From Chloranthus sessilifolius (Eukaryota > Streptophyta > Magnoliopsida > Chloranthales > Chloranthaceae): a stretch of DNA of 64,000 nt. Below are positions 2,005 to 58,527 of the stretch, piece after piece. The position numbers were made by a program, and so were the translations under genes. A model generated the notes under the pieces. That model was not told the origin of the DNA, did not search any database, and saw only the letters and a program-made list of their open reading frames with translations. Numbering within the stretch: the stretch's first letter is position 1; each line of letters opens with the position of its first letter. The stretch lies in assembly GCA_021018995.1 (NCBI GenBank), contig CM037585.1, positions 66,900,646 to 66,964,645 on the forward strand, given 5' to 3'.

Positions 2005-2595
2005 TTCGCAAAGAAGAAGTGGAAGCTAAAGCTCAATTAGAAAAGAATCTCTTCAATTCGCAAAGAACCTTGAACTTTGCTAAAGAAGAAAACACTCCTC
2101 GAATAGAAGATTTACCTCTGCGAAAAGAAGAGAAGTCCTCTGCGAAAGAACTTCGCTGCAAAAGAACTTCGCTATGAAAAGAACTTATGCTTTGCGAAAA
2201 GAACTTCGGAGCCAACCTACTTTTGAAAAGACCCTTAAACTCTGAAAATGGCATCATCGGGATTTACACCACTTTGAAGGGCATTTCAAGAACTCGACGC
2301 GCCTAATGTAATTAAAAGCCCAGACATTCCTAAAGATTCCAAGCACAAACCAAAGGCATATTCACCACGTGAAAACCCAAAGATGAAATCACTTGGCGGG
2401 AACTTCTAGAAGCTCAAACAAACTTTTGAATTCCCATAAGAATTGATGCTTCTAACTGATTGGTGAACCAGATCGAGCATTTTCATTGGCGAAATGTATC
2501 TGGATCCCGTGCTCAACACCATTGGGCAATACAGATCTGAGCACTTCTGATTGGTCAATTCAGCCTTGTGCAGGATAGAGGGAAAGCTATAAATT
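2005..2595 (+). promoter_or_regulatory. U3 promoter of A with reiterated TTCGCAAAG/GCGAAAAG motif
   Basis: A run of motif copies at about 2005-2229 (for example ATTCGCAAAGAA at 2007 and 2048, TTTGCGAAAAGAACTTCG near 2190) is followed, after about 350 bp, by TATA box TATAAATT (2588-2595). The same motif family fills the U3 of D and the internal promoter of D. Confidence 0.65.
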
Positions 2596-3007
2596 GAGAA
2601 GACATTTGCCCAATTGGGGCATCCAGATTTTGAGTTTTCATCTCTGTTTCCCTCCTTCCGGTCAGATACATGCACTTGTAATAGCTTCTTTTGTATTTGC
2701 TTTTGAGAGTTTCGAGCTATTTGTAACTCCAAGGAGATTGGATTCAAGACGCAAGTCCGAGGTATCTAGCCGTGCTCGTAATTGTAAGATTGAATTTAAA
2801 GGTTGTCAGAACGTGTTTTCTCCATTGGATTCATGTCAAGGGTTCTTATTGATCACCTTAGTGCATTAGACTCCTTTAGATTCACTACTTTGCATGCAAT
2901 TTCCCTTGATTCTTTACTCTGCATTTAATTAGCGTTGGTAACCTAGTTCGACAAAGACTTGCAGTGATGTTCATGTTCTGAATTGTGGATAGGTCAACAA
3001 CTATTGG

Positions 3008-3039
3008 ATGATCTGTGACCATTTAAGTGGACAGATCAT
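3008..3039 (+). other. Conserved bulged leader hairpin (A)
   Basis: Perfect 9-bp stem ATGATCTGT/ACAGATCAT, GA bulge, 3 bp CCA/TGG, loop TTTAAG. It lies about 420 nt downstream of the TATA box, hence in the transcript leader. Equivalent folds with compensatory changes occur in all the related LTRs. Confidence 0.65.
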
Positions 3040-3548
3040 AACCATAAGTCCAAATCCCTTCCTTAATTCAGATTTATTTCCCTTACATCTGTCGGTAGCC
3101 GATGAAGATTGAATCAACTCATTTAGTTGCAGATTCTCCATTAAAATTCAAAAGCGTAAATCACGTAAAGTTATTATTTCTCCATTTGATTTATTTTAAT
3201 CACTTCCCCAACTTGGATCTGGATCAGTTAGTTAGTTCTTTTCTTTATTTGCTTTTAGTTAAACGTGACAAAACCCAACACTCTCTTTTTATCTGCTTTC
3301 TAGATAATTATAGAGCCAGATCTGGTAGCACAGATCTGGAGGTCTATCTCATATTTCAGACAAATTCTCTGTGGACGATCTTTAATATACTTACTTTTAA
3401 AACTTGCTACAATTGGCCCTGATCTTGCAGGCTATTGTTAGCCCTCAATGTGCTGATATCTCTTTCATAATTTAAAATTATGTAACTTAATATTCATTAA
3501 TTCGTCATTCAAAACACACATAAATCAGGCACATGTTAGGCAACAACA

Positions 3549-3832
3549 CACTTATCCTATCCCTTATCCATGACATCCAATCCCAATTATCCACCACTAC
3601 CCAAACACAGGACCAGATGCAGATTGAACTCACATCCATCCAATCCACCCTTCAGACATTAACCAACCCACCCATCACTCAACAATTCCCTACAACCCCC
3701 CTAGTCCTTTCCACTGACAAAGAGACCCAGACAGACTTCAACCTTGACTCACAACGCCCCCCACCACCAACAATCCCTTTCATCCCCACAACCCCCCACC
3801 ACCAACAATCCCTTTCATCCCCCCTAGTCCTT
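3549..3832 (+). pseudogene. Fragment of an Athila-type accessory 3' ORF (Pro/Gln/Thr-rich part)
   Basis: An open stretch continuing from the LTR of A encodes a helical segment followed by a Pro/Thr-rich tract (residues like SLIHDIQSQLSTTTQTQDQ). This resembles the part of the accessory ORF of D around 48180-48330 (NQILAYLQSIQAQLQ). It is only a piece: upstream it is replaced by the LTR of A, downstream it jumps at about 3832 into sequence matching element H/B. It probably represents the element into which A inserted, later joined to B by deletion. No start codon of its own. Confidence 0.5.
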
Positions 3833-3963
3833 CATTTATTGTGCGCTCTCTTTTCCCATAATCGGTTGTGCGTTTCTTCATTCCCCACATAATGATCATT
3901 TATTGCCAAGCTTGGAAAGGGACAAAACTTTAAATTGGCCGATTCATGTTCCACCGTCCAACT

Positions 3964-3974
3964 CTTTTAAATAG
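3964..3974 (+). promoter_or_regulatory. Internal TATA box for the small 3' ORF (B)
   Basis: CTTTTAAATAGG, 67-77 nt before the ATG at 4041, followed by a pyrimidine-rich, 5'UTR-like stretch with CTAACCCTAGTAGTCC. H has the equivalent CTTTAAATACA at the same place, with the same leader bases. The motif cluster expected further upstream has been lost at the 3832 junction. Confidence 0.55.
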
Positions 3975-4040: not shown

Positions 4041-4310
4041 ATGGCGAATGACAAACCCTTCGAGTTCCCCATCAAATTCTACCCCATCTGGGAAGATCCC
4101 CCACCGCCCAAGGAGTCAGACCCGTTGTAATTTCTTTGGGATGAGTATGAAAAAGTCCAACGGATCCTGGCAAAGGAGGAGAAGAAAAAGGAGAAGAGAG
4201 CGAAGAAGAAGCAAAAGATTGACCCCCATGCATCTCCCCCAACCCTCCCCCACCGACCCCCCCATGATCCCTGTTCTTCCCCACTCTCTTCTTCTTCATT
4301 TTTTCTTTAA
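4041..4310 (+). pseudogene. Small Lys-rich accessory 3' ORF (B copy), interrupted by a conserved TAA
   Basis: The ATG lies just after the leader; 29 codons (MANDKPFEFPIKFYPIW...) are followed by TAA at 4128-4130. The same frame then stays open for about 59 more codons, encoding FLWDEYEKVQRILAKEE, a strongly basic run of Lys/Arg and a Pro-rich tail. Element H carries the same ORF with the TAA at the same position and similar residues on both sides. No signal peptide or membrane segment is seen; the basic run could be a nuclear signal or a nucleic-acid contact (inference). It sits where C and D carry their long accessory ORF, so it may be a reduced version of it. I do not recognise the family. 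Confidence 0.5.
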
Positions 4311-6359: not shown

Positions 6360-7100
6360 ATTACCTCACATAGATGTCACAGGGCTCAATTGAACCAAAA
6401 GGAATGCGTTGCACAGTTGTCGCGGGCATCTGAAGGGAGCACCCGAGCTGGTCGCACAGTTTTTGCGTCGTTCGTGCGTAGATGGATGTCAGCAAGGAAT
6501 AAAAAGTATACTTCGCGCGGTCCTCGCGAAGGTCAGTCTTAAGCGCGCTCAAGAGATGAGTTTTCAACCTTTGCGCGATTTAATGAATAGAGAGAGCTCC
6601 AGGCCTTCCTGCGCGCGGCTACCGCGCAGTGGCCACAGGACACATACTTTTAAGGAACTGCTCACGCGATCCAGAAGCCTATGTACATTATTTTCTTCGT
6701 GAGGATCGCCACGGGATTCATCAAAGAACGAATTGCGCGCGTAATTCTCGCACCATTCAAATGGAAAGACCAATCCCGTGATGACCAAAGCATCCCCGCG
6801 ATGACCAAAGTACCAACCCCGCGACTGTAAGAGCCTCAAGTCAAAGCAACCCTGCGACTCCAATTCTACCACGTGGCGAGATCTTGAAATCTTTTCTACC
6901 CAGTAAGGATCAGGTTCTAAACTTCTCCCCACTTCAGCAAGGGCAATCTGGGAACTTCCAGCAATTAGGGCATGCACTCCAATGCTCCAATCTCAGTGCA
7001 CATGCCTCGAGGCATCCAAGGGACAAGAATGGGCCGTAATTGTATTAAGGAAATTGAGGTTTTCCTAACCCTAATTCACAAAGAGCCGACTGCTATATAA
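6360..7100 (+). promoter_or_regulatory. U3 promoter of B with reiterated TCGCG/GCGCAG motif
   Basis: A locally GC- and CpG-rich stretch (about 6400-6900) in AT-rich surroundings, made of many short variants such as TTCGCGCGG, CCTCGCGAAGG, GCGCGCGGC, CTACCGCGCAG and TCACGCGATCC. TATA box TATATAA is at 7094-7100. The same motif type is found in the LTRs of E and H and in front of the accessory ORF of H (56385-56720). Confidence 0.65.
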
Positions 7101-8757: not shown

Positions 8758-9042
8758 CCCCGATTGTCAGTATGTATCATATGTACCATACTCTATTTTT
8801 ATTTTAGGTGTTTACTTTATTGTTAATCGATTCTTTTTTGCAATATGAAAAGAAAAAAAAAAAAGTGGGAGAGAAACAAAACTGCCATGCTTAATACTAG
8901 GCCGTCATTTCAGTATTACCAGTTATCCTCAAATAATGGGAGCTTGGCCATAGGAACAACAAACAAGAGCAAGCGATCTTTGAGCCAGCCTAATGCTAAA
9001 CTAAGCGAAAGTACAATCGTAGCCTTATTTGATTTTTAAAAA

Positions 9043-9396
9043 TCTTCGACAGGTCGAATTCACCTTTCGATAGGTCCCATGGCGATTTCGACAGGATGTT
9101 CGACGATTTCGATAGGCACTAAACTTCTCGACAGGAGAAACTAACTTTTTGATCAGTTAAAAAGAGCAAAATGGAGATTTCGATAGGTTCTAAATACTAA
9201 TCAGGAACCTATCAAAAGGAAGACTCAACTGTCGTTTAAACTGATCAAAAGGATAGTTCCGCCTATCGAGATCCTATCGAATCATCCACTTTCAAAATTT
9301 TGTCTGCTATGTTTTCGATAGGACGCACGAACCTATCGAAACCATCTAGTTCATCCTATCGGAATCTTATTTCAACTTTTATATACCCGTCGATAG
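9043..9396 (+). promoter_or_regulatory. Internal promoter of C with reiterated TTTCGATAGG motif
   Basis: About 14 copies or variants of TTTCGATAGGTTC, in both orientations, between 9043 and 9396 (for example 9064, 9086 as TTTCGACAGG, 9107, 9178, 9205 inverted, 9261, 9272, 9313, 9329 inverted, 9389). TATA box TTTATATAC is at 9378-9386, followed by a pyrimidine-rich leader with AAAACCCTAG at 9428, typical of plant 5' UTRs. It lies about 310 nt upstream of the accessory ORF start. The same motif reappears in the LTR of C (14555-14950). Confidence 0.7.
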
Positions 9397-9696
9397 GTCA
9401 TTTGTGCCTCATTCCATACCTTCTGCAAAACCCTAGTTTTTTTTTCTCTCTGTCGCCTCCCTCTTTCTTCACTAATTCCTCATAGAACCTTTAGCTGTTC
9501 AGTCTGCCTCTTTGCCAGTACATTCAGCTTGCACATAGGAGCATTTTGCCCCTAATTTTGGAAAAATTAAAGCTGTGCAGTGCGATTTCAGTTAAACCCT
9601 AGGTATTTTGAGGTCAGTTGCCTTCCCACCATCAATCTATCGATCCTCTGATTTTTAAACCTCAAACTTCGCTTGAAGTTGGTGAGTGCCTAATTT

Positions 9697-12502
9697 ATGA
9701 AGAGTAAAATGGATGGGCCGGAGGAAACTCTCGCGAACATACGCCGGAGAACAACTACTTCCACCCCCAAACCCTCCAAGAAGTCGAAGCCAATCGACAC
9801 ACCACCTGTCAAGAGGAAGCTCACTGAGATGTCACCCAAAAAAGAGTCCTAAAGCTAAGAAAGCCAAAGTTGTTGAGATTCAGGAGCCTAGAGCTGCCCC
9901 TCCAGTAGAGCTGCTGGTGGGGTTAACTACCCCAAATGAGTTTGTAGAAAAATTAAGTCTTGTCCCTGAGACGAATTTTGATCTGGCATATTTTGCCAAC
10001 ATTGGGGAGTGCCAGGGGACATTGGAATATTTGAAAAAAGAAGGTCTGCTACCCCTGCTTTCACCCTTGAAGGAAAATGTCTATCCCAGGTTAGTGAAAT
10101 TGTGGTACTAGAACTTGACAAAGAAGGTGGTACCTGGAGCTGAGGATACACTGGAAATCTCGATTGATGATTGAAAGCTGACTGTTGATTGTAGAGATAT
10201 TGGGATGGCTTTGGGGGTCCCATATTAATTTGACTCCACCGGAGCTGAGGGAGCACATATAGGGGCCACATTTCTGGAAATGGCTAAACAGGTTACTAAT
10301 GGAATAGTGGGCTCTGGTGAATCCTTGATGAGAAGAGACCTCCATCCTACCCTCCGACTCATTGATACCATTCTGAGGAAAAATGTCTGTCTCTGGCCAT
10401 TTGCAAGAGAGAAGGACCCCTTTAGTGGATGCACTGTACTTTTGTTCAAAGGGGCAATTTGTTAATGCACCTAAGCTGATTTTTGAAATAATGGTGGACA
10501 TCAATGACAAGGTGCTGAAGAGGCAAGCTTTTGCTAAAGGAGGTAGCCTGCCTTTTTACAGACTCATCACATGTCTGCTCAAGACTGGAAAATATGTGAT
10601 TAAGCAATCTGAACCAATGGAGAAGCTGACCTTTAAATTGTATGGTAAGCGAGAATGGTCAACCAGCCTCACCTTGATTAAGAAAGACCAACCAGTTGGA
10701 AGGGAGGCGGCTGAGAAGACAACCACTACCGTGGCAGCAGAGACTCCTGCAGAGATACCCTTATCTACCCCTCCACCTACTTTACTTTTTCTGTTTGTAT
10801 CTGTCCCTCTTCAAATAGACCTCTCTCCACCCACCTCAGAACCTGTTTCCACTTCAACCACCTCTCATTTTTTCCAACCTTCCATATTGGACCTCCCACA
10901 TTCCTCGAGACAATCCCCTTGCATCCACAGGGCGTGGACCTGTTCACCACTACTGCGTTCACGGCCCTCATGACCTCAATTGTGGAGGATGTTGCTCATG
11001 AGTACACTCCACTTCTTGACTCCCCACACCCACTCTTCCTCATTTTAACCATGCACCATCTTCTCCCTTCCAGCATGTCCAAGCACCAACCCCTTCTACC
11101 CCCACCAGGCCTGACACCCTCACTCAAATCCTTTCCGTCTTCCAATCCATTAAGTCCTAATTAACCATCAACACCGACACCCAACCCTCATGAGCTCATG
11201 TCTCCAATCAATTCAATCCATCCTTATCTCATCCTCTTCCACTCCTCAACCCCCTCACCTATCCCCTCCTGTTTCACCCATACCTACTCCACAACACGCA
11301 GCTGCCCAACCTGAGGAAGTAGCCGCACCAGCTCTCCCCATACTTTCCTCACCACAGGCCACTTTACCCTCATCCACAGATTTACTGACCTCCCCAGCAG
11401 CTGAATCCCCTCTACCCTTCACCACCCCCCACCTATTTTCCAGGATGCCTCCACCTAAACTGATCCATGGGAGGGTCTGGTTCTTTCCACCCCCTCTACT
11501 TCTTCCACTCCACCCTTGTCCTTGCCTATTGTCCTTCGCCAATCCATGCACATACCTCCTACCTCACCCTGTTGTATGCCATGAGGGATAACCCTTACAT
11601 TCATAGGGATGTCCTGAGAGGTATGGCTGCACTTCGAGCTTCCATTGAGGCCCCTTATGAGGCGAGGATTGCCACCATCGAATTGGAGCACCGAATTCAG
11701 CTCCAAGATATCTCTCAAGGGTGGTTTGAAATTCTGACTCGTTATGAGTTAGTAAAACAATTGGCAGCTACTAAGAGCCTCATTGCCAAATATGAGAAGA
11801 AGAATTCTGAGCTTCTCAAGAAAAAACTGGCCAATGCTCAAGAGATACTCAAGGCCACCAAGGAACTCTCTGATGGCAACCTACTCTATGCTACCAAATA
11901 AATTGATATATTGGAGAAAAAGGTTGCTTCCCTTACCTCTCAGCCATTTCAGCCTACCCCTCTCACTACTGTACCCCCTCCTACACCTCCTTCCACTCAA
12001 TCTTGTCCCCCCCTACAACTCAACCTCCTCCCACCTCCCCTGTGGATGTGCACCCTCCTCCAACCTAGGAACCTCCCCCCACTCAACCTGCCCCTCAAAA
12101 ATCAAAAAGGGCTCCCCCCAAGAAGAAATTCACTGTAAAAGATCTGCTCCCTCTGCTACCCCTGCCAAGAAAGGAAAGAGGCCTGTTGCCCAGTCTAAAG
12201 CCACACCTCCCACCCAGCCCCCACCCCAACCTGATACCTCTTTCACCTTACTATCTAAGGAAGAAAGGAGGAAGGCTGCTGCGGCTCTCAGATTGGACCC
12301 CACTACCCTTTTTCCATCAGATTCAGATTTCGATTCTGTTGCTGCTGTTGACCCCAAAGGTAAACAACCCATTGCCCAGTCTAAGGAGGCAGCAACGAAG
12401 CCGTAACCGAGGGCTAAATCTAAAGGCAAAGCTACCTTATCTAAGGATGAGCTGAAAAACCTGGCTGACCTCTATGAATGGCCAGATGATGCCTGTAAAT
12501 AG
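9697..12502 (+). pseudogene. Accessory 3' ORF of element C (putative plant transposon protein type), broken
   Basis: First ATG after the leader is at 9697. Order of parts: basic N-terminus with Lys/Arg clusters (9750-9890); a globular domain (about 9900-10720) sharing KENVYPRLVKLWY, IGMALGVPY and SLMRRDLHPTLRLIDTILR-like segments with the accessory ORF of D; a long Pro/Ser/Thr-rich linker (10740-11560); a charged, predicted coiled-coil segment (11580-11940, with DVLRGMAALRASIEAPYEA); a second Pro-rich stretch; and a basic tail ending ADLYEWPDDACK. Breaks: frameshift near 9845, TAG at 10109, TGA near 10173, TAA near 10227, frameshift near 10410 and more. Several stops replace Gln codons present in D, consistent with C-to-T decay. 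No signal peptide or membrane segment. The domain resembles what databases call a putative plant transposon protein; its function is unknown. Confidence 0.7.
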
Positions 12503-14281: not shown

Positions 14282-14554
14282 TGTTAAGTGGTGAAAAATG
14301 CCACTTTTCACCCTATAACCTGATCATTGATAGACCTATGAGCACACTAATAAGATTTTGTCAAGTGCATTTTGTAGACAGTAATAAAAGAAGATACTCA
14401 TGCAGAAAAGCACTCAAGAATGCCCAAAAAGGAGCTATCTCTCAGCACAGGAAAAACCCAGCAACAGCACAGCAGAGTGTAGCACATCACTGGACCCTTG
14501 GAGCGCGTGGCTACAGCAGGGCAAGGCGAAGGAAGTGAGAACAGGTTGAAAATG

Positions 14555-15160
14555 TCCTATCGATTGGTCACCTAAAGGCTTCGATAGGAGCTGAAAGCAA
14601 AGAAAGGAAGAATTCGTGCAGTTGAAGAGGTCTTCAATAGGATCTGAAGGCAGAAGAAAAATGAATTCGTGTGGATTAAGGAGTTCAATAGGATCTCAGA
14701 ATCTATCGAGTAGCTGAAAGGAAAGAAGAAGCCATCCTATCGAAAATATGGCTGAAGTGTCAAAGGAACCTATCGAATGGTTTCTTGAACCTATTGAGAT
14801 GAAAATGCTAGAATAGAACCATTCAAAGGGTGATTGAGCCTTTTGATAAGACTGAAAGCAAACCTATCAAAATGGCAGAATGCAAAGCAGAACCTGTCGA
14901 AATGGTTTTCCAATCGGTCGAAAGCTTCCTGAACCTGTCGAAATCGTGTGTAAAACTTCTCAAAATTCAGCTGTGCACACGTTGTGATTCAGTGACCTGC
15001 TACACACAACCCGAGACACTTGGTGACCGACACGACGGTTCCAGAAGATGCCCTAGAAAACCGTAACCGACCCACGTGCTTTAACAGAACTCTAACAAAC
15101 TCTGACAACCTTCTAGAAGGGATTTTTGGTAGGAAAAACAAAGGAGAAAGCTATATATAG
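14555..15160 (+). promoter_or_regulatory. U3 promoter of C with reiterated CCTATCGAAA motif
   Basis: About 12 variants of CCTATCGAAA/TTTCGATAGG between 14555 and 14950 (for example 14555, 14580, 14699, 14731, 14768, 14861, 14889, 14930), then TATA box TATATATAG at 15152-15160. The motif is the same as in the internal promoter of C but absent from the other families. Confidence 0.7.
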
Positions 15161-16870: not shown

Positions 16871-16884
16871 AATTCTACCACCGT

Positions 16885-19290: not shown

Positions 19291-19299
19291 GTCTCCGCG

Positions 19300-22454: not shown

Positions 22455-22504
22455 AAAAAAGTACCAACCCTAAGTTAAGAGAGAAGGAAAAGAGTGCATT
22501 CTCT

Positions 22505-22710
22505 GACTTAAAAGGCCCAACTTTCCTCAGGAAGGACTTGGCATGTGTATTACATGCGCCAGAGCATTTTTTCCCAGGTTTGGACTAGCACATGTATTGC
22601 ACGCGCCAGAGCATTTTTTTCTCAGGTTTGGCTTGATGCATGCATTACACACACCAAGCATTTCTTTTCCCAGGATATGCCTGGCTTGTGTAATACACAA
22701 GCCAGACCGC
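22505..22710 (-). promoter_or_regulatory. Palindromic repeat cluster in front of antisense gene 1
   Basis: Four copies, about 48 bp apart, of a palindrome with arms TGGCTTGTGTA and TACACAAGCCA. The best copy (22681-22705) is symmetric except for its centre; the others (near 22538, 22588 and 22637) are degenerate. CCTTTTAAG at about 22506-22515 could be the TATA element for the minus-strand gene starting at 22454. An equivalent cluster lies at 26540-26706. Confidence 0.6.
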
Positions 22711-23189
22711 TAATGCCCCCACAAGAAAGATAAGGTTTGGGGAGGGGCCTATTCTTGCTGGCCCCCTAGCCAGCCCACCTGCATTTCCAGCCCTTTGCTT
22801 AAAAAAAAAAAGAGAAAGAAAAAAGAGCGTGCTAGAAAATATATAGGGATAGAAATTTTGGTCATATTTAACTTATATACATTTCTCCATGTAGGAAAGG
22901 CCCGCACAGATAAGAAAATGGTGGCCAAGTGTTATCCGAGGGTATAGCCCCAAGGCTTTTTCTTGCTATCAATTGAATCCGCCTTGCAAAGAGAACCGAT
23001 ATACCACAACAAAGATGGAGCAGACAACAATGAGGGAAAGCAATAAACATTCATCCAAAGGAGTAAAACCAAAAAAATAATAATAATATAGCATCACATG
23101 GTCCCTTACATATTTCCAAAATAAAAAAAAATGTATATGTCCCAAAAGTCTCAAAATTTATAAATCCAAAAGCAGAGTGTAATCCTTAT

Positions 23190-26457: not shown

Positions 26458-26520
26458 TTTGGTTTGGATAGAGGGGGAGAGAAAGATTTTGAAAATAACC
26501 GTCTTTGGCTCGGGCTCGGC

Positions 26521-26706
26521 CGTTTTAAAAGGTCCCCCAGTTTTGGCTTGGCGTGTGTAATACACAAGCCAAGCATTATTTGGCCCCATTTTGGACTGGC
26601 ACATGTATTACACACGCCTGGCTATTCCTGGCCAGATTTTGTTTGGCGTGCGTAAGGCTATTCCTACCCCTTTTTTGCTTGACTTGTATATTACACACAC
26701 CGAGCC
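26521..26706 (-). promoter_or_regulatory. Palindromic repeat cluster in front of the antisense PMD gene
   Basis: Four copies of the same palindrome as at 22505-22710: the best is 26547-26573 (arms CTTGGCGTGTGTA and TACACAAGCCAAG), others near 26595, 26640 (half) and 26680. A TTTTAAAA box at 26523-26530 lies between the cluster and exon 1, about 70 bp before the ATG at 26457. Confidence 0.6.
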
Positions 26707-26837
26707 TGATCTTCCTCGAACCCGAGGAGGTGCACACGCCCCCAAACGACACACCAACTTCCATTTGACCTACCCGGGAGGTTGTGGTAAAATAAACGGT
26801 TCCAGATCAATGAGCTTGCTCAAAATCCTAACACACA

Positions 26838-34121: not shown

Positions 34122-34359
34122 TTCTAGATTTCTTCAAGCAAATAGGAAGTAGGGCTCCAACTAAAAATGCAAAATTCAAATAGTAAAGGTTTAGAAACTA
34201 GGTCTTACCTTTTGGATTTGATTTTGATTCAATCCCACGAAAAATCCGAGCTCAAAACCCTCGAAAACCCTTCTTCTTCCGCTCTCAAGATCACCAAGGG
34301 AAACCCTAAGCCCAAAGCCCCAACTTCTAAATTTTCGAATTAACAACCAAAAAACCTAA

Positions 34360-34640
34360 CTTATACTCATCTGTCACAAATCGACTGGTCGAAATAAAAA
34401 ATTGACCGGTCGGTTTTTCACTTAAAACCTCAGCTTCACAATTTCGACTGGTCGAACTAATTTTGAATGGTCGGATTCCAAAATCGATTAGTCGGTTTGG
34501 GGTTCGACCTGTCGATTTAAACCTATTTTAACTTAGTGTAAACTTTGCTCTCTATTTTCTCAAATTCAACCGGTCAATGCTATTTTCGACTAGTCGGATT
34601 CAACATCGACCGGTCAATTTGACTCTTGACCGGTCGATTT
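34360..34640 (-). promoter_or_regulatory. Internal promoter of G: TCGACCGGTCG cluster before the accessory ORF
   Basis: About ten variants between 34381 and 34640 (for example 34381, 34403, 34444, 34463, 34483, 34503, 34566, 34585, 34605, 34627). A weak TATA-like AGTATAAG lies near 34362, then about 240 nt of 5'UTR-like sequence to ATG 34121, with AGGGTTT stretches on the minus strand. Confidence 0.6.
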
Positions 34641-34878
34641 TAACCTAAAAGTTCCAGTCTATGTTTTTCTCTTTAATTATTTTGAAACCTTCACTAATTA
34701 ATGTAATTGACTCCTTACACATTCTGTCATGTTACACATAGGTACTAACACTTCAAATTCCTTTACAACTTAAACTTATTCATTTATAACTCATACACTA
34801 ATTCATACATTAGTTCATTAACTAGTTCATTAATGAACTTTTTACAAGAAAAATTTACATTACAAGTACAACTTTTGT

Positions 34879-38217: not shown

Positions 38218-38504
38218 TGTTGAGAACTGAAAAATACCATTTTTCACCCCTTAACTTGAGTCTTGATAGACCTTTGAGAGAACTAAATAACTGTTTTAAG
38301 TGCTTGTGTTGCAGCTAACAATAAAGACAGGCTTAACCTTAAAAGCAGCGTAAAAGTGCCAAAAAGATGACAATCCATGTCAATCCAAAGGAGGAAAGAG
38401 AAGAAACAACCTCACTAGCTGTTGAAAGGTTTGAATTGAAGAGGCAAACACCTGGTCTCAACCCAGAAAAGAAGTATGGAGCAATTCGAACAGAAAAATG
38501 CACT

Positions 38505-39108
38505 ACAGAGTACTTTTCGCAAAGAACTCCGAATCGCAGAAGAACTCGATGCTCAGAAAACTCGAACTCTGCGAAAAGAACTAAAACTCCAGGCTTAGCT
38601 TTCGAAGAGCATCTGAACTCTTCGAAGAGATGATTGACCTTTTCGAAAAGAAGAAAACTCAATTCGAACAGAACCAGAACATTGCTAAAAGACCTTCAGG
38701 AGTTACAACACCTTGCGAAAAGCCCCCTAAGCTATGCGAAAAGGTATTCTGGAGATTCCCAGCTTTTGCAAGGGTAATTCAGTAATCTGTTTCACGCATC
38801 CCAATGCATTTAAAAGCCTAAGGACATTCCAGAGGATTCTAAACATGAAGCGAAGGCATATTCCACCCCACGTGAGCACCCAGAGATGAAATAATTTGGA
38901 GGGAACTTCTAGAAACTCTAATAGACTTTCAAAATGCATAACAGAATTGATGCCTTTTTCACCAGATTGGTTGAACTAGATCGAAGAATTCTGATTGGCC
39001 AGAACAGATCTGGATCCTCGTGCTTGACTACCATTGGTCAATACAGATCTGAGCACCTCAGATTGGTTGATACACATCTGAGTTGGACTTAGGGAAAACT
39101 ATAAATAG
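38505..39108 (+). promoter_or_regulatory. U3 promoter of D (5' LTR) with reiterated TTCGCAAAG/TTCGAAAAG motif
   Basis: Motif variants CTTTTCGCAAAGAAC (38512), CTGCGAAAAGAAC (38568), CTTTCGAAGAG (38597), CTCTTCGAAGAG (38616), CCTTTTCGAAAAGAAG (38638), CCTTGCGAAAAG (38711), ATGCGAAAAGG (38733). TATA box TATAAATAG is at 39100-39108. Confidence 0.7.
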
Positions 39109-45799: not shown

Positions 45800-45884
45800 G
45801 GTAGATAACTGTACATTATGTTTTTATTTCATAGTTTTTGCTTAGTTTCTTTGTTTCTATTTTTATTCATGATTTGTCTCTTTT

Positions 45885-46203
45885 CGCATGGTTTAAATAT
45901 GCTCCAAGTTAAGTCGCAAAGTAATAATTCTCTCTTCGCAAAGTTCAATTTACTTTTCGAAAAGACTCTGGATTTGCAACGAACTGCTTGAAAGCAAGGA
46001 TTTGCTTTTCGAATAGTTGGTTCTGAAGCTATTTTCTTTTCAAAAAGATATTTCTGAAGCTAGTTTCTTTTTGAAAAGATGTTTCTGAAGCTATTAACTT
46101 TTTGAATGGTACTGATGCCATTCGCAGTTGTAAAAAGGTCTATTTTGGAACTTTTCGAAAACTTAAAAAGAACTTTGCGAAATTAACTCTAAGTATATTT
46201 AAA
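45885..46203 (+). promoter_or_regulatory. Internal promoter of D: TTCGCAAAG/TTCGAAAAG cluster and TATA before the accessory ORF
   Basis: Copies CTTTTCGCATGG (45890), AGTCGCAAAG (45912), CTTCGCAAAG (45933), CTTTTCGAAAAG (45953), CTTTTCGAATAG (46004), TTTTGAAAAG-type variants (46030-46080), CTTTTCGAAAAC (46151) and CTTTGCGAAA (46173). TATA box TATATTTAAA is at 46194-46203; further CTTTCGAAG at 46206. Then about 310 nt of leader with AAAACCCTAGATCTC, up to ATG 46512. The same motif is in both LTRs of D. Confidence 0.7.
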
Positions 46204-46511
46204 CCCTTTCGAAGTAGGGGTTTCATATTCGAAATCTTTCTGAAGAGCGACTTGTTCCACAGAAACCCTATTTCGTTCTTTCCTTGCGCGATTTGAGAAG
46301 CTTGCTACATTTTTCTTCACCTTTGTTCGATCATTTGAGTTTTTAGAGAAGGATTTTAGCTTCTAGTCTGGGGGATTTCTGCAAGCAAACAACTCGTTCA
46401 ATCAAAAACCCTAGATCTCGGTATTTCTCTGCACATTCTCTCTGTTTATCATTTGGAAAAGTTAATTTTGTGTCAGCATCTGTTGTGGGCATTTTCATAC
46501 ATCCATTTAGA

Positions 46512-48973
46512 ATGGGAAAAGCTGAGAAATCGTTGGCTGCCATGTTCCCAAAATCCTCTGCTAAGAAAGTTAGCAAACCTAACCTAAAAGGAAAGGCCAA
46601 AACTTCAGCCAAAAGAAAACTATCTATGGATAAAGCGGATAGGGTAGAGAAAGGAAAGAAAGTTCGACATGAGGAACCCATCCCTGCTGCTGCTAGCCCT
46701 GAGCCTGAGCTTTCTCCTCTGCCTATACATTTGGTACTACCAAATCCATTCATTGAAGCTCAGAAGCTAATTCCTGAGCTGATTGTGGACGAAACATTTT
46801 TCGTCAACAAACCGGATTGCCTGTTATCTTTAAAATACATAAGAGATGCCTCACTAAGCAATATCCTTACCCCCTTGCCAGAGAAAATTTACCCACGAAT
46901 GGTGAAGTTATGGTACCAAAACCTAATCAAGGTCACTGAAAGAGATGCTGATGTCCCTACCCTGGTTATCTTTATTGATGATTGCGATTTTACTATCACA
47001 TTTGAAGACATAGGGAATGCTTTGGGGATACCCTTCCAATTTGATCCTTCTGGTCCATTGGCTGCTCCAGAAACAGCCTCCTTTAGAGAAATGGCTGCAC
47101 ATTTAACCGAAGGAATTGTGGGCACTGGATAGTCCATCATGAGGAGAGACCTAGCCCCCCAATTTCTATTGATGGACTCCATTTTGAGGGGAAGTTTTTA
47201 TGTCACCGGGCACAGCCAAGAGAGGAGAACACCAATTCTGGAGGCTCTCTTTCATTTTTCTAAGGGGCAGTTTTTCAATGCCCCTATGTTAATTTTTAAA
47301 GCCATGGCTGATATTAGTGCCAAGTTGAAAAAGGAGCAGAAATTAGCTGGCCTCCCATTTGGTAGATTGATCACAGCCCTCCTAAGAGCCAAGTTTGACA
47401 TTGATAATGAGGAGCCATTTGAAGTCATTGCTCCTCACAATTTTGGGAAAAAGGATTGGACTACAAGCCAAGCCATGCTGAGAAGAATGAGAGAGGAAGG
47501 TGAACCTGCACCTGCACCTACAGCTATTTCTGAACCTACCCCTGCAGTTCCCTTAGAACCGGTTTTGCCAAAACCTATGGTGACCAGCTCTTTAGCTGCA
47601 CCACTTCTTGAAGCGGTTTTGCCAGACCCTGTGGTGACCAACTCTTTAGTTGCACCCATTTTTGAAGAAACTATCCTTCCCATGGTGACCAGCTCTTCAG
47701 CTGCACCAATTCTTGAGGGAGTTAGCCTTTCACCCTCCTCCCCTATTCCAGCCCCTGCCACTTCACCTATCCCAGCTGTCCCATCTCCCATACCCTCCAT
47801 TATTCCAATTATAGATTCCCCCTCTACACCAACCACTCCAACCATACTCACACCACCAATTTCTCCCACTAATGCCCATGTTTTAGCTGCAGACTTTATT
47901 TCCCCATCTCCCTGCACTCCTCTGCTCCAAAGCCGCTCAAATTCACCTGCTCATTCATCCCACACACCTGAAGTATCCCATACACCTGAACCTGAGCCTT
48001 TCACTACAGAGGCTTATTCTTCCTTAATGGGATCTATTTTTGAAACCATGGGGCTTGAACCTATCCCTATACCTGACCCTCATCATTTCACTCACTTACC
48101 TACTTCTCCCTTCTGACCATTGCACCCCACCCTCCACTTGATTGTACAGTCCACATGCCCACCTACCCCCACTGCATCTATTAACCAAATACTTGCCTAC
48201 CTCCAATCCATCCAAGCCCAACTCCAAATCAACACAGAAAACCAGTCTGTGACCAATGACCTACTCCAAACCTTAGCCTCCACATCCCACACAACCACCA
48301 TTACCCCTGTACCTACCTAAACTGAACCAGAGGTAGTATTGGTTGATCTGCCCACCCCCACCACTCACATCCATGCAACCCAACCGAACAAGTCCCTCTG
48401 GTTGCATCCCCTTCACCACTCCCCACTTTCTCTGAGCAAGCCACTCAGACCGACCCTGAAGTCCTCCTTCTGGACACTTCTTCTCCCCCTCCCACAGCTG
48501 GGACACCTTTGGTCCCCTACCATTCCATTCCCCTTCCCAGATTTGCCACCCTTAGAAGAGACATGGAAGAAAATCGTTATATCTGTCGAGATGTTCTAAA
48601 GGGGTTAGCTGATTTACAAGCCTACATTCGAACCCCTTATGAAAACCAGATTCCATTTATGAAATTTGAGAGAGAGAAAATGAAGGACTTGTTGGGTCAA
48701 ACATTTCAGATGGTTCGGAGTGAGCATCACAAGGTGACCATGTTGCAAGCACAGCTTGACCAAGAAAAACTGAAGACCACTAGACTTGGCAAGTACATTG
48801 GCCTCACCAAAAAGATAAAATCAGAGGAATACACTGAGCTACAAAACACAATCCAGGAGAAAGCTCAATCAAGTTCAGACTCCAATACTGATTCTAGTTC
48901 TGATTCTGACAGTGACTCCAGTTCTGAGCCAATTGAACCAACTTATGATACAGATTTTGACACCAGTTATTAG
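46512..48973 (+). pseudogene. Accessory 3' ORF of D (putative plant transposon protein type)
   Basis: First ATG after the leader is 46512 (MGKAEKSLAAMFPK). Parts: Lys-rich N-terminus with a likely bipartite nuclear signal (KVSKPNLKGKAKTSAKRKL); globular domain about 46790-47480 (SNILTPLPEKIYPRMVKLWY, FEDIGNALGIPFQFDPSG, after a TAG at 47130: SIMRRDLAPQFLLMDSILRG, APMLIFKAMADISAKLKK, LITALLRAKFDIDNEEPFEV); a long Pro/Ser/Thr-rich linker (47490-48330) with a three-fold KPMVTSSLAAPLLEAVLP-like repeat; then, after a frameshift, a charged coiled-coil segment (48510-48850, DVLKGLADLQAYIRTPYENQ) and an acidic Ser/Asp tail (SSSDSDSDSSSEPIEPTYDT). No signal peptide or membrane helix. Athila 3' ORFs have been called env-like; this one looks nuclear instead (inference). 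Confidence 0.75.
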
Positions 48974-50720: not shown

Positions 50721-52565
50721 TGTTGAGAACTAAAAAATATCATTTTTCACCCCTTAACTTGAGTTTTGATAGACCTTTGAGAGAACTAAATAAGTGTTTT
50801 AAGTGCTTGTGTTGCAGCTAACAATAAAGATAAGCTTAACCATAAAAGCAGTGTAAAAGTGCCAAAAAGATGACAATCCATGTCAATCCAAAGGAGGAAA
50901 GAGAAGAAACAACCTCACTAGCTGTTGAAAGGTCTGAATTGAAGAGGCAAAGACCTGGTCTCAACCCAGAAAAGAAGTATGGAGCAATTCGAACAGAAAA
51001 ATACACTACAGAGTACTTTTCGCAAAGAACTGAAGCTGATTAAAGAACCTGAACTCTGTGAAAAGAACTAAAACTCCAGGCTTAGCTTTCGAAGAGCATC
51101 TGAACTCTTCGAAGAGATGATCGACCTTTTCGAAAAGAAGAAAACTCAATTCGAACAGAACCAAAACATTGCAAAAAGAGCTTCAGGAGTTACAACACCT
51201 TGCTAAAAGCCCCCTAAGCTATGCGAAAAGGTATTCTGGAGATTCCCAACTTTTGCAAGGGCAATTCAGTAATCTGTTTCACCCGTCCCAATGCATTTAA
51301 AAACCTAGGGACATTCCAGAGGATTCTAAACATGAAGCGAAGGCATATTCCACCCCACATGAGCACCCAGAGATGAAATAATTTGGCGGGAACTTCTAGA
51401 AACTCTAACAGACTTTCAAAATGCATAACAGAATTGATGCCTTTTTCACCTGATTGGCTGAACTAGATCGAAGAATTCTGATTGGCCAGAACAGATCTGG
51501 ATCCTCGTGCTCGACTACCATTGGTCAATATAGATCTTAGCACCTCTGATTGGTTGATACACATCTGAGCTGGACTTAGGGAAAACTATAAATAGACGAA
51601 CCATTTGCCCAATTTGGGCATCCAGATTTTGAGTTTCATTCCTAATCCCCCATTTCCAAATCAGACAGTTTGTCTGAAATCCCTGTAATAGCCTCACTTT
51701 TTACTTGCAATTGAGAGCTGTGAGATACTTCTGTAATTCAAAGGAGAGTTATATTCAAGACTACAAATCCGAGAGCTGTTTAAGCTGTGCTCTGTAATTG
51801 TAATGGTGAATTTAAAAAGATTGCTGTAAACCGTGCATTCTCCATTGGACTCATGTTAAGGGTTCCCTCTGATCTCCTTATTGCATTAGACTCCTTTAGA
51901 TTCACTGTTTTTCATGCAATTTCCCTTGATTCATTAATCCTGTGGGAGTTAGTGTTTGTAACCTAGTCTCTCACGGCATTTGTAGTGATGTTTCTTGTTC
52001 TAAATTAAGGATTTGGATTAAAGACTATTGGATGGTTTGTGGCCATTAAAGTGGACAGATCATAGCCATAAGCGTGAGCCTAATCCTTGAATTAGATTTA
52101 TTTCTCTTACACCTGCGCTTGTAGCCAGATGAAGATTGGATCACCTCTCTGTTGAGCTGCAGTCATTCTCATTAGATTTCAAGGACCAAATCGAAGCTAG
52201 ATATTACTTCTCCATCTTTTATAAGTTTACCTCAAACATTCCCCCAACTCGGATCTGGATCATTTAGTTTAACTTTTACTTTTTATCATTTAGTTAATGT
52301 GACAAATTCAACCTCCCCATCTTATGTGCTTTCTAGACCAGATCTGGAGGTTTATCTTGCATTTTAGACAAATTCTCTGTGGATGATCTTTCACTCACTT
52401 ACATTTAAAACTTGCTACAATTGGCCCTGATCTTGCAGGCTAATTCACTTCTACCTGTGCTGATATTTCTTTACTCTTTTTAATATTCTAGATTCATTAT
52501 AATTTAGCAGTTGCAAACCTGTTTTCAAAACACACATAAATCAAGCACACTAAGAAGCAACAACA
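50721..52565 (+). repeat. 3' LTR of element D
   Basis: TGTTGAGAACTAAAAAA...AAGAAGCAACAACA, 1845 bp. Differs from the 5' LTR by scattered substitutions and by deletions near 51030 and 52336. U3 motif cluster 51015-51230, TATA TATAAATAG 51587-51595, leader hairpin 52032-52063 (ATGGTTTGT/ACAGATCAT, where the 5' copy has ACAGACCAT). Confidence 0.95.
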
Positions 52566-52570: not shown

Positions 52571-53884
52571 CTCCTGGCTACAGCCCATACACAACTGCTC
52601 ATCCACGATCGCAATGTATACAAAATCTATTACAAGACTGAAACAAAACTAAACCTAGATGCTTATAGGGGGATTAGGCAGCAAGAGCTGAGCTAAGAGA
52701 GAAGAAAAATAAGAAAAAGAAGTGATGAAACCCTAACCCTAGCCTGCTAGAGCTCTTAGCCGGCAGAGGATGAAGGAAAGATCAAAATAATAAACTCTAA
52801 GTCTAGCTTATATACTTTGTCAAAATGGCCTTGGCTCTAAAGAGATTAACCCTAACTTTTCCAACAGACGTGGCACTGTTACAACCCTTGAATTCCTCGA
52901 GATGTGTACTTCAAAATCCATGCCTCAAGAAGTGTGCCCTAACCTTGGGAAATTCCTAAAAGGTCCCTGAGTTAAACTGAGAAGTGGAGAGCCTGCGCTT
53001 TGCAGGGCTGGCAGGTGTTTTAGTTTACTCACACAGTTGCTTTGCTTTCACAAAGTTACCTTTGGCTGATGGGAATGGCACATTCGTGCAGTAAACTTTT
53101 AGTGAATTACGCAGTTGCTTCGTGTCATAGTGCTGTCGCAGAGATGATCTGGAGAGCCAGGGTGTTTCGCACAGTAGAGCTTCAGGAGCTCTCTCTCGCT
53201 AAGTACTCGCGCAGGTGGGCTCCTGCGCTCGCGTAGTAACTTGTAAGGCTCCAGAGTGTGCGAGATCTGCGCGAGGGGAATTTTGGGTGTCTCTCTCTTC
53301 CAGGGCCATGCGAGAACTCCGTGAGGTGACTTTTTGTTCTCTATGCACATGCACTCGCTGGGTTCTTCGCGTGGTTGCTTTGAGGCTTGATCTCCGCGAG
53401 AGCTTCATGACCACGAATTCTGAAGGTTTCACACTTTGAGATCTTCACGATGTCTTTACAACTCTCCTCTTGACTGCACGGCCTATCTGTGCGAGAGCTT
53501 CTTCCACAGCAACTTTAGCTTCGCGAGGAGGCTTCTCAACTCTACGAGGTCAGTTTCTTGGCACTTTGCTACACTACACTTGCTGTTATTGCAGCATCCT
53601 TCCTTCTCAACTGACTTTAGTCATTTGTTAGACTTTAGGTAAATGATGATCAGCAACAGTGAGTCACCATAGTGAGCACTACAAAGGTGTTCCATTAGGC
53701 TTTGGCTTAGTTACCAACTTTGCTTGTATTCTCTCTCTTTGGGCCAAAATGCCAGGATTTTGTATTAAGCTGCACATTTTATTACTAACTGCAAAACATA
53801 CTTAACAAATGATTATTTGTGGGCTTCAAGGTCCATCAAAGGCTAGGTTAAGAGGTGAAAAGTGGTACTTTTCAGTGAATAACA
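52571..53884 (-). repeat. 3' LTR of H, proximal part (U3 and TATA)
   Basis: Read on the minus strand it starts TGTTATTCACTGAAAAGTACC at 53884, goes through the TCGCG-type motif cluster (53535-52960) and TATA box (52815-52806), and is cut by D at 52571. Confidence 0.8.
52806..53535 (-). promoter_or_regulatory. U3 promoter of H with reiterated TCGCG-type motif
   Basis: CpG-rich cluster between 52960 and 53535, with minus-strand variants such as CCTCGCGAAGC, TCTCGCGGAG, ACGCGAAGAAC, CTCGCGCAGATC, CCTGCGCGAG and TACTGCGCG. TATA GTATATAAGC is at 52815-52806. The cluster lies upstream of the TATA as in B and E. Confidence 0.6.
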
Positions 53885-55561: not shown

Positions 55562-55915
55562 ATGAGGAGCAGTGTCCTCACTGATTCAAAGGTGAGATGT
55601 GCAGCAGGTATAAAACCTAGAAATTAACAAAACAAAAACTACAAAAGAGAAAAAAGAACACACAAAAATGAACAAGGAATTACGCACATGTATAAGCAAA
55701 ATAGTGATAGATTGTCGACAAAAGAGATTTTATTATAGATACAAAAGCAAACACAATACAAAATATAGAAAATTATAAACCTAAGAACAATCTAAGCAAA
55801 GCATCCTGTCAAACAAAATGGTTCTTCCTCCTGGCTCAGGGATGCCCTCAACCTACTGTGGAAGAGGAATTGTAAGCTAGGAGGAGGTGGAAGACAAGGA
55901 TCATGGAGATGGGTA

Positions 55916-56149
55916 TTAAGCAACTGGTGAGGGGTTTGAAGAAGATGGTGGGGGAGATGCCGGTGGTTCGGTTTTTTACTTCTTCTTCTTTCCCTTCTCC
56001 TTTTTCTTCTCCTCTTTGGCCAGGATCCTCTGGACCTCTTCGTACTCATCCCAAAGAAATTATAGTGGGTCCGGCTCCTTAGGTGGTGGGAGGTCCAACC
56101 ACATTGGATAAAATTTGTTTGGGAACTTGGTGGGTTTGTCATCCGCCAT
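55916..56149 (-). pseudogene. Small Lys-rich accessory 3' ORF (H copy), interrupted by a conserved TAA
   Basis: Minus strand from ATG 56149: MADDKPTKFPNKFYPMWLDL, PPPKEPDPL, then TAA (56062-56060) and, in the same frame, FLWDEYEEVQRILAKEE, a Lys-rich run, a second stop, and TEPPASPPPSSSNPSPVA before the final TAA at 55916. It matches the B copy (4041-4310) including the first stop. It is preceded by a TATA box (56224-56217) and a TCGCG-type cluster. No homology recognised outside this family. Confidence 0.5.
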
Positions 56150-56216
56150 TGTTGTGAGTAAGGAGGGACTACTAAGGTTAGAGGAGAATGGGTGAGATGA
56201 AAATGAACTGTCTGTG

Positions 56217-56720
56217 TATTTAAAGTACTTGGATGGTGGAATACGGATGGGCACATTAGCTTTCATCTCTTTCCGAGCATGACAATAAATTGTGATTATT
56301 CTAGGAATGATAAATCGCACAACCTATTTAGGGAATGAGGGCTCACAATAAATGGTGGTCTAATTTTGGCATTGGGAATTAAGGCAATCCCGTGTTTCAC
56401 AGAGTTTTCCTAAGTGCTCGCGAAGTAGAATTCTCGAGCAGTACAGATGTACCTCGGCAAGAAGGATAATCACGCAGAAGCAAATAGCTCCGCAAGTACA
56501 AAATCAAAAACATTGTGTGCCTCACGAAGTTATTTCACGGAGTAGACGTTGGGATTGAGCACGCGAAGTCATCTTTCATTTCTCGCGCAGCTTAGCTGGG
56601 GATCTCTGTGAAGAACATCCATTCGGAGTTTCAAAGGTCTCACAAAATAGAATGTTTTGAAATTTACAATTCACGCCCCTATGACTCTGCAAGAAAGTGG
56701 TGAAATGGTCTGCGACAATG
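56217..56720 (-). promoter_or_regulatory. Internal promoter of H: TCGCG-type cluster and TATA before the small ORF
   Basis: Minus-strand motif variants between 56720 and 56385 (GCTGCGCGAGAAATG, GACTTCGCGTGCTC, AACTTCGTGAGG, CTTGCGGAGC, CTGCGTGATTATCC, CTTCGCGAGCAC). TATA CTTTAAATACA is at about 56224-56217, then a pyrimidine-rich leader with CTAACCTTAGTAGTCCC shared with B, and ATG 56149. Confidence 0.6.
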
Positions 56721-57164
56721 AAAATTAGGCCATTCAACCCCACGAGAAACCAACAGTCAATCTCTTTACACCATTTGTGCTTAGGCCTGTGCTTGCACAA
56801 TGTCTTGCACCCATTCAGGGGTCATCAGCACCAACCCTTCACATGTATTCCTTTTCCAAATGATAATAACCTCCCTAATACTAGCATAGGCATAGCAAAA
56901 ATTTCAAATGATAAAGGACCTTGATGAAAACAGATACTAAATAATTACAGTGCTAGTACTTTGCTCACACTTCAGAAAGAAGTATCATACATCTCCCATG
57001 TTACTGACAAAAATGAATAATACTAAGACTAAAACCTATAAAGTGATTGAAAATAAACAAGCACATAGAACAGAATAGAACAAACACACAAAACAGATAT
57101 GGCACACATAATACAAAGCTGTCGATCACTAATCGGTGGGAGGTTCATGTAGGTGAATGGTCTA

Positions 57165-57530
57165 AGGAAGCTCCACTGATTGTTCTACACAAATCTTGAG
57201 CCTCTGACCATTTACTTTCATGATCAGATCAGACTTTGGGTCCAAGATCTCCATAGCACCAGATGGGGAGGCTTTGATGACAGTATAAGGTCCATCACAT
57301 CTAGATTTTAGCTTCCCTAGAAAGAATTTAAGTCTGGAGTTAAAAAGCCAAACCTTGGTGCTAGAAATGAAGTCCTTCCTTAACAGCTTCTTGTCAAAGA
57401 ATGATTTTGATCTCTCTTTGTACATTGTGGCATTGGCATAGGCTTCTAGCTTCATTTCATCAAGTTCTGCCATTTGCAACTTCCTGTGAGAACCATCAGC
57501 AGTTAGATCTATATTCGTTGCCTTGATAGC
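57165..57530 (-). pseudogene. Integrase C-terminus of H (cut by E)
   Basis: Open minus-strand frame: LTADGSHRKLQMAELDEMKL, EAYANATMYKERSKSFFDKK, KVWLFNSRLKFFLGKLKSRC, GPYTVIKASPSGAMEILDPK, IMKVNGQRLKICVEQSVELP. The same segments occur in D at 45440-45790. Upstream it is interrupted at 57530 by the LTR of E; the open frame running further into the LTR is accidental. Confidence 0.9.
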
Positions 57531-57769
57531 TGTTAAGACCTGAAAGTAGCACTTTTCACCCCATAATTTAATCTCTGTTAGACCCTCAATCATTTAATAA
57601 ATGTGTTTTAAGTCTATCCTATAGGTAATAAGCAGAAGCTACAAATAAGCCCCTAACCATGACAAGAAGCCTACTATTGCTCCAAAAGTCCCTCAGAAGA
57701 AAGGAGGTTGAACCCAAACGAAGAGTTGGCTGCAGCATAGGCACAGCAAAGCAGAAAAATGTCAAGAAG

Positions 57770-58527
57770 AATGCCTCGCGCAGATGTCGCAGGGCTCAAT
57801 TGAACTAGAAAAAATGCGTACGCAGTTGTCGCAGACTTTTGAAGGGAGCACAACAACTGGTCGCGCCGTTCGCGCGCAGGTGGATGTCCGCAGGGAGTAA
57901 AAAGCATACTTCTCGTGGTTCTCGTGAGGTTCAGTCTTAAGCGCTTGCGAAGCACTCGTGCAGTCTCGCACAGCTCAAGAGATGAGTCTTCAACCTTTGC
58001 GCAATTCACTCAATAGAGAGAGCTCCAGGAATTCTAGCGCGCAGCTGTCGCGCAGTGGCCGCGGGACACATACTTTCAAGGAACTGCTCGCGCGATCCAG
58101 AAACCCATGTACATTATTTTCTTTGCGAGGATCACCGCAGGATTCATCAAGGAATGAACTGAGTGCGAAATTCTCGTGCCATTCAAATGGAAATACCAAT
58201 CCCGTGACGACCAGAGCATCCCCGTGATGACCAAAGTCCCAACCTCGCGACTGCAAGAGCTTCAAGTCCAAGCAACCCCACGACACCAATTTAATCACGC
58301 GATAAGACTTGGAATGCTTTTCTACCTAGCGAGGCTCAGGTTCTTAACTTCTCCCCACTTTTGCAGGGGCAATCTGGGAACTTTCAACAATTAAGACACG
58401 CACTCCAATGCTCCAATCTTCGTGCACACACCCTGAGGCATCCAAGGGACAAGAATGGGCCACAATTGCATTAATGAAATTTGGGTTTTCGTAACCCTAA
58501 TTCACAAAGAGCCGACTGCTATATAAT
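57770..58527 (+). promoter_or_regulatory. U3 promoter of E with reiterated TCGCG-type motif
   Basis: CpG-rich cluster with CCTCGCGCAGATG (57774), GGTCGCGCCG, TTCGCGCGCAGG (57868), TAGCGCGCAGCTGTCGCGC (58035), GCTCGCGCGATCC (58087), CCTCGCGACTGC (58243), ATCACGCGATAAG (58294). TATA at 58520-58527. Confidence 0.65.

Follow-up and report, generated by a model that had tools for sequence, protein, structure and literature searches.

Paired motif arrays in the long terminal repeats and upstream of accessory open reading frames of Ty3/gypsy retrotransposons from Chloranthus sessilifolius as candidate sites for a family-specific DNA-binding factor

In foamy viruses, a single regulator (Tas, or Bel1) binds response elements in both an internal promoter and the long terminal repeat (LTR), as stated in the abstracts of PMC517496 and PMC4929722, and a 3' accessory open reading frame (ORF) has its own internal promoter (a passage of PMC7828637). 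A plant precedent is provided by the VANC proteins, which, in passages of PMC5735166, combine family-specific motifs with the removal of silencing. The present work concerns a stretch of 64,000 nucleotides from Chloranthus sessilifolius (assembly GCA_021018995.1, contig CM037585.1, positions 66,900,646 to 66,964,645 of the forward strand; hereafter the window), where LTR retrotransposons, designated A to E, G, H and T, carry arrays of short motifs. C, D and G each repeat a family-specific motif strongly both in the U3 part of the LTR and between pol and an accessory 3' ORF, while the same pairing is weak in H. These arrays may be binding sites for a family-specific factor, the simplest candidate being the product of the accessory ORF, which would act at both of them, a reading that we judge to be about evenly balanced between right and wrong.

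The window contains plant-like DNA that is dense with nested LTR retrotransposons. Element D possesses both LTRs (38218–40104 and 50721–52565), which are 94.5% identical and have the target duplication ACTAT on either side, and its domain order in the Pfam scan (RNaseH, H2C2, rve, with gag outside the scan) is that of Ty3/gypsy elements. Judged by the matches on both sides, D appears to have been inserted inside the LTR of the minus-strand element H. A, B and C are 3' parts of elements carrying an LTR, while E starts at about 57537 and runs out of the window, its accessory region lying beyond. A, B, C, E and H share an LTR block and a 3' block with D, and the alignment of the LTR-start and 3' noncoding blocks across families agrees with the sequence-only reading, a model's earlier account of this DNA, in which the flanks were conserved and the arrays swapped. 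These elements may be of the Athila lineage, the name given by that reading, the Pfam match of D to Transposase_32 being weak. No Mutator-like transposase, which would mark a VANDAL transposon, is found among the Pfam matches of the 18 scanned frames, and the viral contigs scanned with a pol piece of D gave no match.

Element G (minus strand, about 29970–36900) is absent from the sequence-only reading. The C model anchored on CG (described below) lit up positions 31451 and 34351, so that the stretch was read and G was found before the untargeted ranking. It contains RNaseH and integrase-end domains, an array, accessory ORF remnants and a presumed LTR starting at about 32306 behind a purine-rich stretch, in this order. 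One of its frames has a Tf2-1-like SH3 domain and no chromodomain match, and the element may be of the Tekay/Del type. The sequence-only reading had described the pattern for Athila-type families; it is probably broader, as G, which shows it too, is a different kind of Ty3/gypsy element by its pol and probably belongs to another lineage than Athila.

The arrays lie where the sequence-only reading had placed them and contain the motifs it had named, with H as the weak case; array borders were set by that reading and by CpG peaks, and consensus strings were chosen by hand. With up to one mismatch, TTTCGATAGG has 19 matches in the 64 kb against 3.3 expected, 16 of which are within the two C arrays. 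TTTTCGMAAAG has 29 matches (4.6 expected), 27 of them in the A, D-LTR and D-internal arrays, and since it is near-palindromic, many of its sites are counted on both strands. The third motif type ascribed to B, E and H is represented by CTCGCGMAG (27 matches against 5.1 expected, 24 inside their arrays), while TCGACCGGTCGA has 15 matches against 0.25 expected. The possibility that shuffled sequence would give equal motif density, which had been raised beforehand, did not materialize, as none of 100 shuffles reached the observed count for any of these four strings. The G motif, ATCGACCGGTCGAT, is a perfect palindrome.

Sharing of one motif by the two sites of an element, as claimed for every family, was borne out by common 8-mers relative to dinucleotide shuffles in C (z = 13.4/16.6) and D (z = 5.3/5.6) but not in H, while the same test gave z = 14.1/18.6 for G and 14.6/15.6 for the T pair. 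Comparisons across families mostly stay under z = 3, the exceptions being A with D (5.3–10.7); B, E and H reach up to 30 among themselves (B with E, which are close copies), and B or E with the H internal array 2.9–3.5. Values unexplained by kinship are those of A U3 with G U3 (3.6 and 2.3) and of D internal with E U3 (3.0 and 2.9). In an untargeted ranking by common 8-mers of 202,566 pairs of 300-bp segments, minus pairs less than 600 bp apart and pairs whose sharing was concentrated on a single diagonal, the G arrays came first, the C arrays second and the T arrays third, followed by A U3 with the D LTRs or D internal array (4th, 5th and 6th) and by D internal with D U3 (8th and 12th). The ranking is blind to location, yet G had already been spotted.

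An unconstrained expectation-maximization motif search succeeded in C and D; in A it returned an A-run, and the B, E and H arrays were reduced to base composition. Therefore, a CG-anchored model, consisting of the bases around CG, was trained on each of eight U3 arrays and applied to the four internal arrays. The own-family internal array scored highest in all eight cases (A and both D arrays pointing to D; B, E and H to H), and, conversely, the U3 model that fitted each of the four internal arrays most closely was that of its own family, with C and G mutually second-best. The consensus retains a TCG core in most arrays. What the two C arrays have in common is mostly pieces of 9–34 bp, with a single one of 52 bp at 69%, scattered over many diagonals and both strands, D likewise shares short pieces, and the U3/internal pairs of C, D and H are absent from the matches listed at more than 70 bp and E up to 1e-8. 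Array duplication as a simple source of the pairing was thus set aside for C and D. Longer alignments join the two G arrays (137 bp at 70%, E = 6e-12) and the two T arrays (73 bp at 79%). As the C sites occur in both orientations, a function at the RNA level was set aside as well, and their arrangement suggests that the sites act at the DNA level.

Helical phasing was analyzed in seven of the 14 arrays (A U3 and both sites of C, D with its 5' LTR, and G), leaving out the D 3' LTR, a copy of the 5' one, and T, while B, E and H were tested separately. Successive motif centers are mostly about 21, 31, 42 or 52 bp apart, and for periods of 5–40 bp the 59 spacings fit best to 10.5 bp (R = 0.77). 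When sites are placed at random, the maximum within 9.5–11.5 bp averages 0.19, and none of 2000 random sets matched the observed R. Within 1.5 bp of multiples of 10.5 bp lie 49 of the 59 spacings, against 19.7 expected. Taken separately, the motif families have best periods of 10.5–10.6 bp (P = 0.0016 for C; 0/5000 for G and for D with A). R stays at 0.76 when tandem arrays are dropped (54 spacings) or look-alike spacers are dropped as well (37 spacings), while the 27 spacings of at least 28 bp have R(10.5) = 0.70 and a best period of 10.8 bp. Motif-free CG-to-CG distances, scanned over 5–30 bp, have their strongest period at 10.2 bp for B/E/H (global P = 0.01) and at 10.5 bp for A/C/D/G (global P = 0.027), each judged against 300 shuffles. 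Among 120 control windows, 24 had at least six sites of their own commonest 10-mer, and these, when pooled (133 spacings), gave R(10.5) = 0.23 and a weak maximum of R = 0.27 at 10.2 bp. T array spacings are 47–49 bp (about 4.5 turns), with one of 83 bp. Because the spacings in A, C, D and G are multiples of 10.5 bp, their sites face one side of the helix, which, judged from the spacings, is what a cooperative DNA-binding protein would need.

The arrays are also CpG islands, with observed/expected (o/e) CpG ratios of 0.75–1.74 in the ten measured and a CpG peak at the A array too, as compared with 0.07–0.33 in those portions of B, C, D, E and H that were measured outside the arrays and with 0.55 in the pol region of G. 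The ratio is 1.25 in the B U3 array and 0.08 in the remaining LTR, 1.12 and 0.14 in those of E, and 1.24 in the D internal array against 0.07 across leader and gag-pol; it reaches 1.54 in the C internal and 1.03 in the H internal array. CG is kept at 17 of 22 C core sites and replaced by TG or CA at the other five, while none of the four other changes sought was seen; this C copy was therefore probably methylated after insertion. CG may so have been kept through selection during replication, germ-line protection from methylation, or both.

The internal arrays precede a TATA-like pattern and the accessory ORF, in this order. The statement that each array sits upstream of a TATA box holds for 11 of the 14 arrays scanned, which have a TATA-like pattern at or after the array end on the transcribed strand; the exceptions are the D internal array, where TATATT at 46194 lies inside the array, and the two T arrays, which have none. 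In the H internal array, the pattern is present only as TTTAAATA. The accessory ORF of C resembles that of D (44% over 129 amino acids and 41% over 75 amino acids), and both start with lysine-rich stretches. The D product matches PF20167 (Transposase_32) with E = 0.003 and 17.9 bits, under the curated cut-off of 45, while the two C frames scanned, with frame 9701–10111 outside the scan, gave no match to it. A homology search with the D product, as two pieces split at the in-frame stop, returned nothing at E <= 0.001, its length limits being such that full-length relatives may have been hidden, and a sequence search of PDB gave nothing below E = 0.7. H and B contain a small lysine-rich frame (B 4041–4210, plus strand; H 56149–55980, minus strand) unlike the C/D accessory ORF, with 10/5/17 differences by codon position over 171 nucleotides and an in-frame stop common to both; they seem to lack the larger accessory protein.

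Table 1. Arrays and accessory reading frames in the window (positions counted from its first letter).
Feature	Position	Strand	Details
A U3 array	1980..2260	+	D-type motif TTCGCAAAG/TTTTCGCAAAG; 7 sites, spacings 52,21,41,22,52,29
B U3 array, CTCGCG type	6400..6880	+	41 CGs; 4 CTCGCGMAG-like matches
C internal array TTTCGATAGG, 5' of accessory ORF	9040..9400	+	13 sites, both orientations; TATATA at 9380
C accessory ORF, interrupted	9701..10973 (frames 9701-10111, 10377-10973)	+	Lysine-rich frame 9694-9852
C U3 array TTTCGATAGG	14540..14960	+	11 sites
T array TGTRTTACACRC before antisense ORF	22500..22760	-	ORF 22454-21909 (-), weak PMD match, E = 0.0084
T second array, motif TGTRTTACACRC	26500..26760	-	5' of antisense ORF; ORF 25240-24689 (-), PMD match, E = 3.5e-10
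G array, palindrome ATCGACCGGTCGAT, presumed LTR	31430..31730	-	9 sites; TATAAA at 31368
G accessory ORF remnants, pol to presumed LTR	32718..34123	-	Frames 34123-33866, 33413-33126, 33092-32718
G internal array ATCGACCGGTCGAT	34350..34650	-	10 sites, spacings 21,42,19,21,20,62,20,20,20; TATAAG at 34365
D 5' LTR U3 array TTTTCGMAAAG	38490..38770	+	8 sites, spacings 54,31,20,21,41,31,21
D internal array, pol to accessory ORF	45880..46290	+	8 sites, spacings 52,21,52,31,31,84,22
D accessory ORF	46512..48116	+	In-frame stop at 47130; lysine-rich N-terminus; weak Transposase_32 match
D 3' LTR U3 array	50990..51250	+	Its model fits D internal array best
H U3 array, CTCGCGMAG type	52960..53560	-	29 CGs; 8 CTCGCGMAG-like matches
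H region 3' of internal array	55792..56256	-	Small lysine-rich frame, ATG at 56149; shared with B (ATG at 4041)
H internal array	56385..56730	-	17 CGs; B, E and H U3 models favor H among four internal arrays
E U3 array, CTCGCG type	57770..58330	+	41 CGs

In the T region, the element at 16250–25540 has pieces of pol in sense orientation along with PMD ORFs (PF10536) in antisense, and it resembles TAT/Retand-type layouts. The T arrays contain a palindromic motif around GTGTAATACAC and lie 5' of two antisense PMD-type ORFs. The motif includes GTATTAC, which recalls the VANC21 motif YAGTATTAY, possibly by chance. AT-rich tandem repeats with units of about 100 bp (25740–26110) and of 22/67 bp (26850–27040) are present in the T region.

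A sequence-specific DNA-binding factor at both promoters is a well-supported candidate in C, D and G, because the motifs are family-specific, the C sites occur in both orientations, the D and G cores are palindromic and the sites are phased. In the mechanism proposed, a family-specific nuclear protein would bind CG-cored, often palindromic sites before the TATA boxes of two promoters, namely the LTR and an internal promoter that would drive the accessory 3' ORF. With the sites on one helix face and at least two turns apart in most families, a dimeric protein could bind cooperatively. The accessory product made from the internal promoter would feed back on its own promoter and would activate the LTR of the family that encodes it, or relieve its silencing, as foamy virus Tas does, and if protein and site diverge in concert, neighboring families would be kept from cross-activation. 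The putative identity of the factor with the accessory product fits the ORF position, the lysine-rich N-terminus and the different ORF in B and H. We infer dimeric or cooperative binding, the promoter nature of the internal region, the encoding of the factor by the element and the direction of its effect. A wider proposal, which is put forward tentatively, is that more than one Ty3/gypsy lineage carries a self-encoded, family-private circuit, where the accessory protein reads phased CG-cored palindromes at both promoters, prevents their methylation and activates its own family only, joint change of protein and site would insulate the families, and H and B could depend on the accessory protein of a related element, for instance E.

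The main rival explanation is that the proteins on the arrays are transcription factors of the host, a different one having been adopted by each family for both of its promoters, and that the accessory ORF is otherwise employed. Plant LTRs do recruit host factors, HSF at ONSEN and WRKY at EVADE (passages of PMC12786077), and phasing and CpG retention would appear identical under such factors; however, an equal factor switch at two promoters in several families would be needed, and the TCG core common to most arrays hints at one related protein family. Some G sites contain TTGACC, the WRKY core. No plant factor is known to us to have the consensus sites of these arrays, no motif library having been searched, and we consider host factors rather unlikely. 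The case for VANC-type anti-silencing proper, in which an element protein removes array methylation and promoter activation is secondary, is that CpG is kept at the arrays, that VANC21 and VANC6 are likewise described with family-specific short noncoding motifs differing among relatives (passages of PMC5735166), and that in one Athila clade of sunflower the LTRs are lowly methylated in every context (passages of PMC12844716). In the same VANC passages, however, the targets are tandem repeats, whereas here only 5 of 14 arrays contain tandem units according to TRF and the phasing is independent of them, and the TG or CA at C core sites points to a copy that was probably methylated after insertion; this explanation is quite unlikely.

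Two explanations involve no protein. One array might have been copied from the other and the copies homogenized by recombination, which would suit the long alignments of the G and T arrays, but C and D share mostly short pieces on many diagonals and both strands, and copying leaves phasing with dissimilar spacers, CpG retention and the TATA order unexplained, so that it is very improbable. That the arrays are a chance or composition artefact of CpG-rich patches is scarcely credible, as dinucleotide shuffles, the all-against-all ranking and cross-family controls oppose chance for C, D and G, although the collapse of B, E and H in the unconstrained search and the failure of H in the 8-mer test would be expected from it, and for H it keeps a small probability.

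Several results weigh against the preferred reading, that of a family-specific factor acting at both promoters. All evidence comes from one 64-kb stretch of one genome, and one copy of the presumed G LTR lies in the window. The H pair has z = 1.0/1.3 in the 8-mer test, and H U3 with D internal, at z = 2.9 (1.6 in reverse), exceeds it, which counts against the H pairing; the H internal array is absent from the ten best windows for H U3, and the H pair is missing from the 30 best-ranked window pairs. In favor of H, the CG-anchored H U3 model gives p = 7.5e-8 on the H internal array relative to background CGs. The CTCGCGMAG sites in B/E/H have no clear phasing (R(10.5) of 0.21–0.40, with best periods elsewhere). 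The accessory ORFs are broken or short, being interrupted in D and C and present as remnants in G, there is only the one Transposase_32 match below the curated cut-off, and the G frame 33413–33126 resembles the D accessory product weakly (E = 0.010). When the CG-to-CG scan is started from 4 bp, a period of 4.0 bp comes first in A/C/D/G, which is ascribed to CG pairs lying within the motif, and given the control maximum at 10.2 bp, the periodicity may to a small extent be a general feature. Between the D LTRs, the array is no better conserved than the remainder (18 substitutions in 281 columns, as opposed to 51 in 1612), and in one copy CG has turned into TG or CA at 3 of 13 and 7 of 20 sites, as would be expected after a copy has landed.

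If a family-specific factor encoded by the elements does act at both promoters, abundant plant repeats would control their own transcription via an encoded regulator, like complex retroviruses, and DNA-binding specificity would diverge family by family inside one genome. Predicted target sites are now given for one lineage, in three motif classes, and for a single element that is probably of another, and the paired, phased, family-private arrays make the role of the encoded protein directly testable. Three observations go beyond the sequence-only reading, namely the presence of element G, the phasing of the sites along the helix and the fact that the arrays are CpG islands.

Accessory genes of plant retrotransposons have been described in several related elements. 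The 3' accessory ORF of sunflower Athila elements has a partial Transposase_32 match and a nuclear localization signal, and D weakly shows the same domain; passages of that source on the Athila and Tekay accessory ORFs mention neither motif arrays nor an internal promoter, and the Tekay one is on the 5' side, whereas the G accessory ORF follows pol (PMC11728184). For the low-methylation sunflower Athila clade, the role of the encoded proteins is left for investigation by its authors (passages of PMC12844716). In passages of PMC7264820 and PMC11963269, Grande gene23 is an accessory gene with its own promoter and a nuclear protein, DNA binding is predicted for the Retand product, and no common LTR motif is described for either; the antisense PMD ORFs of T are like the accessory genes of Grande and Retand, which are antisense to gag-pol. 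Among the matches listed from the plant-retrotransposon literature, which are a part of that literature and were available as passages, sharing of arrays between LTR and internal region and helical phasing are undescribed. The self-encoded transactivator and family-specific anti-silencing are thus known ideas, neither of which was met before in this element class among those matches.

VANC, which the sequence-only reading had named as the closest parallel, is a fair one for the family-specific swapping of motifs. Its targets are likewise short noncoding family motifs, YAGTATTAY for VANC21 and AGTTGTCC with AGTTGTAC for VANC6, but the motifs are different and, in the same passages (PMC5735166), VANDALs are DNA transposons with tandem repeats in introns or upstream and without LTR/internal pairing. 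The anatomy of the present elements is closer to that of foamy virus Tas, as sites are common to the LTR and the region upstream of the accessory ORF (strongly in C, D and G, weakly in H). Foamy virus is a vertebrate retrovirus, and the likeness is one of layout, with sequence kinship outside the comparison; unlike its response elements, the present arrays, known from sequence alone, are many-site, CG-cored and mostly phased.

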